Source: Shewanella cutis
GTDB taxonomy: Bacteria > Pseudomonadota > Gammaproteobacteria > Enterobacterales > Shewanellaceae
DNA: 64,000 nt
Assembly: GCF_022410515.1 (NCBI RefSeq)
Contig: NZ_JACSDI010000005.1
Span: 1 to 64,000, forward strand
Reading direction: 5' to 3'
Numbering within the stretch: the first letter of the stretch is position 1; the number at the start of each line of letters is the position of its first letter. The translations under genes and the position numbers were made by a program. Below are positions 1 through 63,040 of the stretch, one piece after another. The notes beneath the pieces are model-generated. The model saw nothing but the letters and a program-made list of their open reading frames with translations, made no database searches and was not told the DNA's origin.

Positions 1-64
1 TCTAGTTTCTAGTTTCTAGTTTCTAGTTTCTAGTTTCTAGTTTCTAGTTTCTAGTTTCTAGTTT
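1..64. repeat. CTAGTTT heptad tandem array (window edge)
   Basis: Nine consecutive 7-bp units of CTAGTTT run from position 2 to 64 and are cut by the window edge, so the true copy number is unknown. The ninth unit starts at 58, where CTA is the complement of the TAG stop codon of the aminopeptidase gene. The array therefore supplies that gene's stop codon and lies immediately 3' of it. Related CTAGNNN heptads occur at 50989-51104, 59666-59714 and 60750-60777. Confidence 0.95.
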
Positions 65-48738: not shown

Positions 48739-48885
48739 GGCCATTTTGCGCCATTGCGACGGTTGAAAAGCAGATGTTTCTTCCGTTGCCAACTTGTAGG
48801 TGATTCGTTGTTTTATGCGCGAATGGGATCAAAATACTTGCTATCAGTTCCCATCTCGCTAGAATGCCCGCTCGAATACCTTTAA

Positions 48886-49045
48886 GTAGAGGCGCGCTGC
48901 CTATGACTACTTGTGCGGAGGGTGATGCCGCAGATGTACAAGGAAAGGAGTCAGCGCCGAAGTAGCCAGGTCATCAAACCGAGCTGCTGGTTTTGCATCA
49001 AATAGGTGCAAGACTGCCATAGTCATCCACTATGGAGCGCTACCT
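48886..49045 (+). ncRNA. lysine riboswitch (L-box) aptamer
   Basis: The region carries conserved blocks of the lysine aptamer: AGAGGCGCG at the start, GGAAAGGAGTCAGCGCCGAAG in the middle, GCTGCTGG, and ACTATGGAGCGCTACC at the end. The P1 helix pairs GTAG..GCGC near 48886 with GCGCTAC near 49042. It immediately precedes lysW, a known target of lysine riboswitches in Shewanella and Vibrio. Confidence 0.93.
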
Positions 49046-49136
49046 GAAGGGGCTGAGGAGTATTACCTCCCTATAGGTTTTGTTTCTTTATCCTCTCGGT
49101 AGATCTCCACCCGTTTTCTTTAGGTGAAAAGAGATC
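49034..49136 (+). promoter_or_regulatory. lysine riboswitch expression platform (RBS sequestration)
   Basis: Two alternative structures can be drawn. OFF: GATCTC (49102-49107) with GAGATC (49131-49136) plus CACC (49108-49111) with GGTG (49123-49126), enclosing the ribosome-binding site AGGTG. ON: P1 3' strand GGAGCGCTACC (49034-49044) with GGTAGATCTCC (49098-49108), 9 of 11 pairs. The two share 49102-49108, so they exclude each other. Confidence 0.72.
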
Positions 49137-50766: not shown

Positions 50767-50988
50767 GTGGGCTTACTCAAGCCCATAGCCATCTAAGTTA
50801 ATTTATGTTAGTCATCACTTAACTATCTAATTTGTAATGTGAAAGTGGTAGACAGATGTTAAACAGAACGTTATCTTACGTTTTTAACAAGGATGAGACT
50901 TGTCCGTGACCACGGCTAAGTTCACTTGCATCAGGAAGATGTGTCTTTATTTCGCAAGAACACCTCCTGAACAATATGCGATAAGACT

Positions 50989-51104
50989 CTAGGTGCTAGG
51001 TGCTAGGTGCTAGGTGCTAGGTGCTAGGTGCTAGATTCTAGATTCTAGATTCTAGATTCTAGATTCTAGATTCTAGATTCTAGATTCTAGATTCTAGATT
51101 CTAT
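50989..51104. repeat. heptad array: 6 x CTAGGTG then 10 x CTAGATT
   Basis: Six perfect CTAGGTG units (50989-51030) switch without a break in register to ten perfect CTAGATT units (51031-51100), followed by CTAT. The two blocks differ only at heptad positions 5-7. The abrupt switch suggests separate block expansions of a mixed seed. Confidence 0.95.
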
Positions 51105-59665: not shown

Positions 59666-59714
59666 CTAGATTCTAGGCTTTGGTTCCTAGCACCTAGATT
59701 CTAGGTCCTAAGAT
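59666..59714. repeat. degenerate heptad array between metH and the CobC-like gene
   Basis: Seven consecutive heptads in one register: CTAGATT, CTAGGCT, TTGGTTC, CTAGCAC, CTAGATT, CTAGGTC, CTAAGAT. Most keep CTAG at the start. It ends about 15 bp before the start of the phosphatase gene, so it sits in its 5' leader. Confidence 0.85.
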
Positions 59715-59729: not shown

Positions 59730-60452
59730 ATGAAACAAGTTCGCTTATTACTGTTGCGCCACGGGGAATGCGAAGGTGGGGCGATTTTACGTGGCCGTGT
59801 TGATGTGCCCTTAAGTGACAAGGGCTGGCGGCAGATGTCGGCGGCGGTGGAGGCTCATGCGACTGTGTGCCACGGTATTTATAGCTCCACCTCAAGGCGC
59901 GGCGCTGAATTTGCCAAGGTGTTGGCGCTGGAGCCGCATTCCAGGTTGTCTGAGAGTTCACATTTAGCGGCACCAACGCCTTCGCCGCTTGAGGTCAACC
60001 TGCTGGAGGATCTACAAGAAATGGATTTTGGCGATTGGGATGGTCGCGTGCTCGATGAGTTATATCAACAGGATGGCGAGCGCATGGCGGCCTATTGGCA
60101 AGATCCTTGGGCCGTGTCGCCGCCCAATGGTGAAACGATGGCAAGTTTCGAGGCTCGTATCGATGGCGCAATAGAGCAGATCCTCAATAAAGAGTTTGCC
60201 CTGCTGGCGTTGGATGATGAACAGGCCCACGGCGAGCGTAATGCCAATGCACCCACAGCCAATATTTGGGTTCTGACCCACGGCGGGGTGATCCGTCATT
60301 TAATGGCAAGAGCGTTGGGGGCGGTGAGAACGGTAGGGTTTTACAGTCAACTTACTTTACCGGTTGCCGCGGTGGTGACGATTAATGTACTCGAAGATAA
60401 ACATGGGACTCGATACTGGCGCTTAGACTGGCCATCGGGCCATGGTGATTGA
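59730..60452 (+). CDS. cobC: histidine phosphatase, probable alpha-ribazole phosphatase
   Basis: Cytoplasmic phosphatase of the histidine phosphatase superfamily, 240 residues. The phospho-histidine motif RHGE is at residues 10-13, a second conserved His in VLTHGGVIRH near 190, and an acidic catalytic block DFGDWDG near 95. The position before a B12 riboswitch and next to btu and cobT genes favours CobC (dephosphorylates alpha-ribazole-5'-phosphate or cobalamin-phosphate). The family has many roles, so the specific name rests on context. Confidence 0.8.
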   Translation: MKQVRLLLLRHGECEGGAILRGRVDVPLSDKGWRQMSAAVEAHATVCHGIYSSTSRRGAEFAKVLALEPHSRLSESSHLAAPTPSPLEVNLLEDLQEMDFGDWDGRVLDELYQQDGERMAAYWQDPWAVSPPNGETMASFEARIDGAIEQILNKEFALLALDDEQAHGERNANAPTANIWVLTHGGVIRHLMARALGAVRTVGFYSQLTLPVAAVVTINVLEDKHGTRYWRLDWPSGHGD

Positions 60453-60590: not shown

Positions 60591-60814
60591 CAGAAATAGG
60601 TGTTGGGAATTTCGCTTTATCCTGCGCTATTCGCTTAAGGCAATAGTCGTTATAAACGCCGGATCAACCCAAACATAATAGGGAATCGGGGTGCTGCCCG
60701 TCAGCCAGCCCGAACTGTACCCGCAACTGTGAGTAGTTAAAAGAAGCGCCTAGATTCTAGATTCTAAAGCCTAGCTCCTTCTTTTCTACAAGTCAGGAGA
60801 CCTGCCTATTTCTG
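60591..60814 (+). ncRNA. cobalamin riboswitch aptamer with heptad-filled peripheral arm
   Basis: Conserved AdoCbl-type features: GGGAA (60681), the CCCGCAACTGTGAG block (60720-60733) and the B12 box AGTCAGGAGACCTGCC (60791-60806). P1 is a perfect 10-bp helix, CAGAAATAGG (60591-60600) with CCTATTTCTG (60805-60814). Between the CAACTGTG block and the B12 box there is one variable arm: GTAG-tt-AAAAGAAG (60733-60746) with CTTCTTTTCTAC (60778-60789). Its loop is CGC plus exactly four heptads (60750-60777). Confidence 0.92.
60750..60777. repeat. four heptads inside the riboswitch arm
   Basis: CTAGATT, CTAGATT, CTAAAGC, CTAGCTC in register; together they form the loop of the variable arm of the B12 riboswitch, apart from three bases at its 5' side. 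Confidence 0.9.
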
Positions 60815-60838
60815 TTGTCGCTGCATGCAGCCTTAGTT

Positions 60839-60862
60839 CTCGAGCGGGTGACTCGAGGGAGC
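60839..60862 (+). promoter_or_regulatory. B12 riboswitch regulatory hairpin overlapping RBS
   Basis: CTCGAG (60839-60844) and CTCGAG (60852-60857) form a hairpin with a 7-nt loop; its 3' arm runs into GGGAG, the ribosome-binding site of the leader ORF. The loop-side GCGGGT (60844-60849) is complementary to ACCCGC (60719-60724) in the aptamer, as expected for a kissing interaction that controls RBS access. Confidence 0.62.
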
Positions 60863-60867
60863 AGAAA

Positions 60868-60951
60868 ATGAAATTGATACATTTCGCCCTGTGGCCTATG
60901 GCGCTGCAAGGTTTTGGTAACACCAAATATGCCTGTGGGAGTGGCTTGTAA
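60868..60951 (+). CDS. 27-codon leader ORF coupled to btuD
   Basis: ATG 60868 has GGGAG at 7 nt spacing. The 27-residue peptide is slightly hydrophobic with one basic start residue pair. Its TAA (60949-60951) shares a base with the ATG of btuD (TAATG), so ribosomes finishing it can restart on btuD. Thus the riboswitch hairpin could control btuD through this ORF. Confidence 0.6.
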   Translation: MKLIHFALWPMALQGFGNTKYACGSGL

Positions 60952-61883
60952 TGAAGCCTTCCACATCAACAGCTAGATCAACAGCTAGATCAACAGCTGT
61001 GCAACCTTCGGCGGCGCTACCCCATGTGGCACTCAATGTCAGCCAATTGAGTTGGACCATCGAAGGTAAAACCATTCTCTCTGGGGTTAACTTTGCCCTG
61101 CAACGTGGTGAAATGCTGGGATTAATCGGCCCTAACGGGGCGGGTAAATCCAGTTTACTGCGTTGTCTATATCGCTTTATTCGCCCGACGCAAGGGCAAA
61201 TCAGCTTGTTTTCGCAGGACATTAGCGAGCTTTCGCCCAAGGCGTTTGCCTGTAAAGTGGCCGTAGTGCAGCAGGATACGCCGCACTATTTTGATATGAC
61301 CACAGAGCAACTGGTTGCTATGGGGCTCACGCCCCACAAAGGGATGTTCGATACTAATTCCAGCGGTGATAGCGAAAAAATTAGCAAGGCACTTGAAAAG
61401 GTTGGACTTAGCCACAAGCTGTATCAGCAATATGAGCGGCTTTCGGGCGGTGAGAAACAACGGGCGCTGATTGCCCGTGCTATCGTTCAGCAACCACAAT
61501 TACTGATTTTAGATGAACCCACAAACCACCTCGATGTGCGCTATCAAATACAAATTTTGGAGCTGGTTCGAAGCCTTGGCATTAGTGTGATTGCCTCGAT
61601 TCATGATCTGAATTTAGCAAGCGCCCTGTGTGATAGCTTGCTGCTACTGGATAATGGGCAAGTGAGCGCCATGGGCACGCCAACTGAGGTGTTGACGGAG
61701 GAGCGCATTGCTCAAGTCTTTGGGGTTTGCGCCCAAGTGATGCCCCATCCTCAACATGCTAACCCGTTGATTAATTACTTTTATGGCTATCAAAAATCAT
61801 ATGGTCATCAAAAATCGACAATGGATGAGGTGGTTGTATCCCACTCTCCCGACACCATCAATGGGGTGAAAACCCCATCATGA
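60951..61883 (+). CDS. btuD: cobalamin ABC importer ATP-binding protein
   Basis: ATPase subunit of the vitamin B12 importer; 310 residues. Walker A GPNGAGKS, ABC signature LSGGEKQ and Walker B LLILDEP are all intact. The N-terminus has a short repeat (STAR STAR STA) encoded by 12-bp tandem repeats, and the C-terminus has YGYQKS/YGHQKS from 18-bp tandem repeats; neither is part of the ABC fold. The start overlaps the leader ORF (TAATG), and the stop overlaps the btuC start (ATGA). Regulated by the upstream riboswitch. Confidence 0.9.
   Translation: MKPSTSTARSTARSTAVQPSAALPHVALNVSQLSWTIEGKTILSGVNFALQRGEMLGLIGPNGAGKSSLLRCLYRFIRPTQGQISLFSQDISELSPKAFACKVAVVQQDTPHYFDMTTEQLVAMGLTPHKGMFDTNSSGDSEKISKALEKVGLSHKLYQQYERLSGGEKQRALIARAIVQQPQLLILDEPTNHLDVRYQIQILELVRSLGISVIASIHDLNLASALCDSLLLLDNGQVSAMGTPTEVLTEERIAQVFGVCAQVMPHPQHANPLINYFYGYQKSYGHQKSTMDEVVVSHSPDTINGVKTPS
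60966..60998 (+). repeat. 12-bp tandem repeat at the btuD N-terminus
   Basis: TCAACAGCTAGA twice (60966-60977, 60978-60989), then a partial third copy. It encodes STAR STAR STA and adds an unstructured tail before the ATPase core. Confidence 0.9.
61782..61817 (+). repeat. 18-bp tandem repeat at the btuD C-terminus
   Basis: Two near-identical 18-bp units encode YGYQKS and YGHQKS, after the conserved ABC domain. Confidence 0.85.
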
Positions 61884-63040
61884 TAAGCAGACTTAAGCTG
61901 ATGAAGCTGTTAGCCCCTATTTTTACGCCCTTAACTCGCCAGCAATGGCTGATGTTAGCCTTGGCGGGGTTTACTCTGCTGACGCCGATTGCGGCCGCCA
62001 GTTTTGGCGCAGCGAATATCAGTTTTTTAGATGTGCTGCATGTGTTTATCAATCAATTTAATCAGTTTTTTGCTAATGACGATGCGCCAACTTCTGCCGC
62101 GATGACGGAGCGGATTGTGATGGAATTAAGGCTGCCACGGATATTGCTTGCCTTTGTGGCGGGAGCAGGGCTGTCTTTGGCGGGGAGTGTGTTGCAAACC
62201 GTGACTCGTAATCCCCTTGCCGATCCTTATTTGTTTGGGATTAGCTCAGGAGCCTCCTTTGGTGCAGTGGTGATGCTGACCTTGTTTACGGGGTCAGGCC
62301 TATTTGGCAATGCTGGGGTGATTGCCAACTCGGCGATGTTGGGGGGCTCGGGCCTATTGGGTGGGACGAAAATATTGGCGGGGCTTCTCTGGTTTAGCTT
62401 ACCTTTAGGCGCTTTTATTGGTGCCAGTTTATCCGTGCTGATTGTGCTCGCGTTGGCAGGTTTAGGGTTAAAGAGCCAAGTTGAACGCATGCTGCTCTCT
62501 GGGGTGGCAACTTCCTTTATGTTTGGCGCATTAACCAGTTTACTGCTGTATTTTGCCAGCCCGCAGGCTACAGCATCCGTGCTTTTTTGGAGTTTGGGCA
62601 GTTTTGCTAAGGCCAGTTGGTCGCTATTAATTTTGCCGTCCATCGTTGTGCTGGTGAGTTTTTTTATCATCCTCGGTTGGAAGCGGCAGATTATGGCCCT
62701 GCAAGCAGGAGATGAAACCGCCCACACCTTAGGGGTGAATGTGCCCAAATTACGCCTCAATATGTTGCTGCTGTGCTCGTTAATTACGGCCATTTTAGTG
62801 GCGACCTGCGGCGGCATCGGTTTTGTTGGATTAATGATCCCCCATACGGTGCGCTTGTTATTTCCTGGTCGCCAGCCAATCCTGCTCACTGCGTTAGTGG
62901 GCGGCCTGTTTATGGTGTGGATTGATGTGCTAGCGAGATGTTTGCTGGACAATCAAGAGCTGCCCGTGGGGATTATCACCGCTTCGATAGGCAGTTTTTT
63001 CTTTTTGCTTATTCTGCGTCGGCGAAAGGTTGCCAGTTAA
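61880..63040 (+). CDS. btuC: cobalamin ABC importer permease (FecCD family)
   Basis: Membrane permease of 386 residues and about ten helices. Family blocks include ELRLPRILLAFVAGAGLSLAG near residue 80, NPLADPYLFGISSGASFGAV, and GFVGLMIPHTVRLLFPG near 315, which contacts the ATPase. It overlaps btuD by 4 bp. No binding-protein gene (btuF) is in the operon within the window; it may be elsewhere. Expressed with btuD from the riboswitch-controlled transcript. Confidence 0.92.
   Translation: MISRLKLMKLLAPIFTPLTRQQWLMLALAGFTLLTPIAAASFGAANISFLDVLHVFINQFNQFFANDDAPTSAAMTERIVMELRLPRILLAFVAGAGLSLAGSVLQTVTRNPLADPYLFGISSGASFGAVVMLTLFTGSGLFGNAGVIANSAMLGGSGLLGGTKILAGLLWFSLPLGAFIGASLSVLIVLALAGLGLKSQVERMLLSGVATSFMFGALTSLLLYFASPQATASVLFWSLGSFAKASWSLLILPSIVVLVSFFIILGWKRQIMALQAGDETAHTLGVNVPKLRLNMLLLCSLITAILVATCGGIGFVGLMIPHTVRLLFPGRQPILLTALVGGLFMVWIDVLARCLLDNQELPVGIITASIGSFFFLLILRRRKVAS

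Follow-up and report, generated by a model that had tools for sequence, protein, structure and literature searches.

Units of a dispersed CTAG heptad repeat form what is probably a short minisatellite in a side arm of a Shewanella cobalamin riboswitch

In Shewanella cutis, a cobalamin riboswitch possesses a hairpin arm whose loop is composed of consecutive 7-nt units. We consider it highly probable that these units represent a short minisatellite of a dispersed CTAGNNN repeat residing in a side arm of the B12 riboswitch, and that ladder-like closure of the units permits the arm to tolerate the gain or loss of whole units. The arm follows the register GAAG-NNN-(CTAG-NNN)n-CTTC. The tetranucleotide CTAG is its own reverse complement, and added units could therefore pair with one another, folding back into CUAG/CUAG helices with 3x3 internal loops between them. 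The arm would thus grow outward in 7-nt steps with its base staying closed, a change that would be tolerated. Whole units would be gained or lost when copy number changes, replication slippage being the simplest route, and such changes may be nearly neutral.

The window, that is, the whole stretch of DNA analyzed, comprises 64,000 nt of one S. cutis contig, and its relevant features are listed in Table 1. A family-model search of the window matched RF00174 over its full length (model positions 1-189), and the heptads coincide with the long variable insertion of this model. The arm (60733-60789) is located between the CAACTGTG core and the B12 box. Its stem consists of 12 bp, in which GTAG (60733-60736) pairs with CTAC (60786-60789) and AAAAGAAG (60739-60746) pairs with CTTCTTTT (60778-60785), with a TT bulge at 60737-60738. 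An earlier note on this DNA had described a 12-bp stem and a 31-nt loop comprising CGC and exactly four heptads, and the arm agrees with this description base by base. The heptad count holds in that four 7-nt units stand in register in the loop (60747-60777); only units 1 and 2, however, are identical, and units 3 and 4 are degenerate, sharing CTA or CTAG with them. In both sequence and predicted fold the S. cutis arm reads as a single hairpin, and the second four-way junction of P7, P8, P10, and P11 that belongs to the P8-P12 type extension of class I cobalamin riboswitches is not apparent. Downstream of the B12 box, GCGGGT (60844-60849) is complementary to L5 ACCCGC (60719-60724), as read from the sequence. 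Both the kissing-loop complementarity and the B12 box are present, the core of the switch looks intact, and neither ligand binding nor switching is expected to involve the heptad arm, which is a side arm.

Table 1. Coordinates of the riboswitch, its arm, the heptad arrays and the neighbouring genes in the window.
Feature	Position	Strand	Basis
CTAG-heptad array (TCTAGTT x 9.1) with which the contig opens	1..64	.	
Intergenic CTAG-heptad array, CTAGGTG units followed by CTAGATT units (the riboswitch unit)	50984..51103	.	sequence
Short CTAG-heptad array between a metH-like ORF (-) and the histidine phosphatase gene (+)	59666..59704	.	
Histidine phosphatase gene, upstream of the switch	59730..60452	+	PF00300
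Cobalamin riboswitch aptamer	60628..60823	+	RF00174 family model, 51.4 bits (gathering score 31.5)
L5 element ACCCGC, complement of L13	60719..60724	+	read from sequence; L5/L13 naming after PMC11260477
Arm stem, 5' side: GTAG, TT bulge, AAAAGAAG	60733..60746	+	sequence; predicted fold
31-nt insert: CGC + CTAGATT CTAGATT CTAAAGC CTAGCTC	60747..60777	+	sequence; counterparts in relatives vary by whole heptads
Arm stem, 3' side: CTTCTTTT, CTAC	60778..60789	+	sequence; predicted fold
B12 box core GTCAGGAGACC	60792..60802	+	sequence and model alignment
P13/L13 hairpin CTCGAG-CGGGTGA-CTCGAG, adjoining Shine-Dalgarno-like GAGGGAG	60839..60857	+	sequence
ABC ATPase (BtuD-like), downstream of the switch	60951..61883	+	PF00005, E 2.3e-35
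FecCD-family permease (BtuC-like)	61880..63040	+	PF01032, E 6.8e-82

Orthologues of the ATPase are present in 128 of 129 Shewanella genomes, and the DNA upstream of each was taken for comparison. The switch could be parsed in 113 of the 128 with a pattern that combines the core with several B12-box variants. Among the 15 unparsed cases, the arm of G067 is too long for the pattern, G071 ends at a contig end, and 13 yielded no core within about 700 nt. Because L5 and the B12 box were used for parsing, their conservation is partly by construction. In 111 of the 113 parsed switches the B12 box is followed by the GCGGG of L13, and this element is present in all 21 members of a set that comprises 20 heptad-type arms and G092 and excludes G042, G089, and G047.

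By our reading, 23 of the 113 parsed arms are of the heptad type, including some with a single unit (G045, G109, and G115) and others that are strongly degenerate (G111, G106, and G014). Successive CTAGs in the 113 arms are spaced by 7 nt 39 times, by 14 nt five times, and by 21 nt and 6 nt once each; a CTAG pair exactly 7 nt apart occurs in 16 of the 113 genomes versus at most 2 in 1000 letter shuffles. A loop could be defined between the anchors GAAG, GACG, or AACG and CTTC, CTTG, or CTTTC in 21 of the 23 heptad-type arms, G089 and G047 being without anchors. The loop measures 3+7n nt in 17 of these 21 (10, 17, 24, 31, 38, 45, 59, and 66 nt). Since related species share lengths by descent, the 21 loops do not represent 21 independent events. 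The departures from this rule are G115 (9 nt), G010 (29 nt), G062 (39 nt), and G014 (44 nt). Several close relatives (G083, G006, G036, G097, and G015) possess a plain hairpin without heptads. The arm of S. xiamenensis JCM 16212 is that of G093, the arm of S. decolorationis S12 is that of G045, and the arm of S. morhuae is the heptad-free arm of G006. The check set beforehand for the insertion proposed in the earlier note was an alignment of the riboswitch across Shewanella; among the parsed switches, close relatives do not share a conserved heptad-free arm, and the loop is not constant at 31 nt with a single sequence. The insertion view is supported by anchored loops ranging from 9 to 66 nt, most of them in the 3+7n series, and by neighbouring species that differ by 7, 21, or 28 nt. 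A search for two adjacent heptads between CAACTGT and CAGGA, a pattern whose gap limits let long arrays (G061, G120) escape, found 14 of the 129 genomes, with one place in each, and its reversed control found none. That the repeat is carried by other cobalamin switches is unsupported: the second cobalamin switch of the S. cutis genome (L001) has no CTAG pair by eye, and no pair at 7 nt was found in 29 other RF00174 loci (the 30 highest-scoring further loci with L004 left out).

Pairs of related genomes reveal the steps by which the arm varies. These comparisons use one genome per species, and the length differences are accordingly differences between species. In the cleanest pair, G002 and G029, both flanks are identical at 95 of 95 positions, and the arms are identical at 52 of 53 positions with one 7-nt gap corresponding to one heptad. 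S. cutis (G000) and G061 are sisters on the tree described below, and their arms differ by a 28-nt gap of four units but otherwise agree at 59 of 60 aligned bases. G042 differs by 21 nt from G081 and by 28 nt from G109. The arms of G011 and G120 also differ by 28 nt, but only 58 of 69 aligned bases are identical, and the 8-nt difference between G058 and G074 goes against the whole-unit rule. Overall, the units stand head to tail and the lengths of relatives differ in whole units, as in a tandem repeat. The differences of G036 from G029 and G002 (14 and 21 nt) were ruled out as heptad steps, the G036 arm being an unrelated hairpin.

A quickly built BtuD+BtuC tree, in which some branches are long, covers 70 chosen genomes of the 128, namely the 30 best matches plus 40 that bear heptads or neighbour those that do. 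Heptads occur in two separated clades of this tree, with at least nine changes of presence among 69 rows (G067 left out), and both clades contain different plain hairpins (G083, G006, G036, G097, and kin; G027 and G094). The unit sequence, the number of units, and even their presence vary among close relatives, and we therefore reject the heptads as a conserved functional sequence. The G002 arm is identical to the S. cutis arm at 57 of 60 positions, yet the tree groups G002 with G036 and its unrelated hairpin. This mismatch hints either at an exchange of arms or at ancestral arm types that were sorted differently.

The units of the arm recur far beyond the riboswitch. In the window, CTAGNNNCTAG has 27 matches versus 0.52 expected and a maximum of 4 in 100 shuffles, and one of the 27 lies inside the riboswitch. 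When the window was dinucleotide-shuffled 100 times, no shuffle contained a match to the 17-mer CTAGATTCTAGATTCTA of the riboswitch, even with one mismatch allowed. In S. cutis alone, where just two of four units are identical, one might suppose that an ordinary variable loop merely looks periodic; given these shuffle controls and the 7-nt steps between relatives, we reject such a chance similarity, whose probability we regard as close to nil. The short array at 59666..59704 lies about 1 kb upstream of the switch. With three CTAGs in 7-nt register as the pattern, the S. cutis genome yields 50 matches per strand on seven contigs, overlapping matches being counted separately, and the reversed control yields none. 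All 18 arrays examined in this genome (four in the window and fourteen in seven chosen stretches) lie outside ORFs of at least 90 aa, and none of them overlaps an Rfam match except the riboswitch array itself. One heptad array shares its stretch with tRNAs. The contig itself starts inside a heptad array (window positions 1-64), and such arrays may break assemblies.

Four CTAGs in register were found in 85 of the 129 Shewanella genomes, compared with 3 of 129 for the reversed control. An order-wide sample of 345 genomes, 26 of them Shewanella, contained four-CTAG arrays in 64 genomes and 17 of 108 genera, with at least 8 genomes matched by the reversed control in a table read by eye. CTAG heptad arrays in other genera of the order, notably in groups g22, g12, and g26, carry other third-position triplets (AAG, CCC/GGA types). 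In all eight genomes searched, the units of the riboswitch arm are also present in arrays elsewhere. As judged from these occurrences, the riboswitch unit CTAGNNN is one of a family of heptads dispersed between genes in Shewanella and in some further genera of the order, and, as in a dispersed minisatellite, the same repeat is present at other loci of the genome. The earlier note had further proposed that a minisatellite colonised a structured RNA, a reading that fits the data, since these genomes also have intergenic arrays of the same units at other places. Arrays that are intergenic and genus-wide, with CTAG as the constant part of the unit, could instead be kept by a role at the DNA level, the palindromic CTAG units serving as a binding or recombination site and the riboswitch arm being merely a tolerant place. 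We regard this as improbable, because 44 of the 129 Shewanella genomes are without a four-unit array. We know of no binding partner for CTAG heptad arrays.

The proposed tolerance of the arm for additional heptads rests on their predicted folding. Minimum-energy folds show a ladder of 4-bp CUAG/CUAG helices and 3x3 internal loops in G061, G093, G002, G082, and G081, and among 28 arms folded the base of the arm is predicted to be lost only in G014. Relative to shuffled loops, z-scores fall below -2 in 6 of 16 scored arms (G082, -4.49; G061, -3.74; G093, -3.14; G042, -3.07; G081, -2.87; G120, -2.22), and the other ten range from -1.48 to +0.42. The S. cutis arm (+0.42) and the G062 arm (+0.41) are not more stable than their loop shuffles. 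Inspection by eye revealed no convincing compensatory changes between paired units. The loop of the S. cutis arm is probably not simply open, since its units are self-complementary and predicted in part to pair. Taken together, the predicted ladders and the mixed z-scores make tolerance through self-closure likely and leave selection on ladder stability unproven.

The six arms that are clearly more stable than shuffles, together with close relatives that have near-identical flanks and different unit counts, would also be compatible with an adaptive copy number, in which arm length tunes folding speed, stability, or the response to B12 as a slow tuning knob or contingency locus. However, close relatives manage without heptads, the sequence and number of units vary without visible pattern, and the S. 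cutis arm shows no extra stability, and we judge this explanation unlikely. A more speculative possibility, to which we assign quite a low probability, is that the heptads are a shared sticky module whose CUAG ladder pairs in trans with other heptad transcripts or with a second copy of its own leader or, more modestly, that copy number tunes the switch. Were the sticky module real, copy number would set how strongly the B12 uptake mRNA joins an RNA network or a dimer. A minisatellite tolerated because its units close on one another remains our preferred reading.

In two genomes the same arm is filled by a different repeat. G067 (L161, L242) and G092 (L153, L240) possess, between the AAGAAG and CTTCTT sides of the arm, a tandem repeat of about 25 nt instead of heptads; the G092 arm measures 270 nt and includes a further insert with inverted repeats. 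A query consisting of the G067 arm and its flanks had 16 matches in G067, 13 in G092, 18 in G011, and 2 in G000, some of which are the riboswitch itself, including both in G000. The repeat of about 25 nt is dispersed elsewhere in G067, G092, and G011. Since heptads and this repeat are both found there, the arm has received two unrelated dispersed repeats.

Repeats within structured RNAs have precedents. STRR sequences, reportedly noted by Vioque in 1997, lie inside cyanobacterial RNase P RNA; like the heptads, they are a dispersed short tandem repeat within a structured RNA gene, and the RNA and the lineage differ. The P6b arm of the Nostoc tRNA-Leu(UAA) group I intron is described as built on mutually pairing heptanucleotide repeats, with variation by units (PMC4476775). 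Like the Shewanella arm, it is a peripheral stem-loop with 7-nt repeats that come and go as whole units and pair with one another, and two repeat classes occur in one arm. It differs in that its host is a cyanobacterial self-splicing intron with TDNGATT and NNTGAGT units rather than a Shewanella riboswitch with a palindromic CTAG unit (PMC4476775). Cobalamin riboswitches are described as sharing a conserved core, the B12 box, and an L5-L13 kissing loop and as differing in a peripheral extension (P6) that lies between core and B12 box (PMC11260477); unlike those variable P6 extensions, the heptad-bearing extension is a simple hairpin made of a genomic minisatellite. In the pneumococcal trp operon, a BOX element lies between two T-box riboswitches (PMC3049150). 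As with the heptads, a dispersed repeat with variable tandem modules is transcribed there in a riboswitch leader, but BOX stands between two riboswitches (PMC3049150), whereas the Shewanella heptads are inside the arm of one. No paper describing heptads in a riboswitch arm or the CTAG heptads of Shewanella turned up in a literature search that covered few subscription papers. As far as we have seen, the phenomenon is of a known kind, and what is new is the host RNA, the palindromic unit, and the 3+7n register.

Genomic minisatellites inside structured RNA, known from the cyanobacterial intron and RNase P, are thereby extended to a riboswitch. Because the core of the unit is self-complementary, each addition can close on itself, which suggests a simple reason for the tolerance. 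Furthermore, Shewanella offers a natural length series of one riboswitch arm, with loops equivalent to 1 to 9 units and heptad-free relatives in otherwise similar leaders, in which the weight of a peripheral arm for riboswitch function can be asked about without designed variants.

The S. cutis switch is located upstream of a B12-related gene. The ABC ATPase and the FecCD permease form a probable B12 uptake operon, B12 being the cargo suggested by the riboswitch, since FecCD covers iron uptake as well. Because the L13 hairpin runs into the Shine-Dalgarno-like GAGGGAG, the output of the riboswitch is likely a B12-dependent block of translation, with control presumably exerted through the L5-L13 contact. 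An ORF of 27 codons (60868-60951) begins just past the L13 hairpin, and its stop codon overlaps the start of the ATPase gene (TAATG). Many relatives have a short ORF at the same place that ends in a TGATG-, ATGA-, or GTGA-like overlap, and the peptide is not conserved between clades. The recurrence of the overlap without conservation of the peptide suggests translational coupling rather than a conserved peptide. The window also contains a lysine riboswitch at 48879-49050 (125.2 bits).
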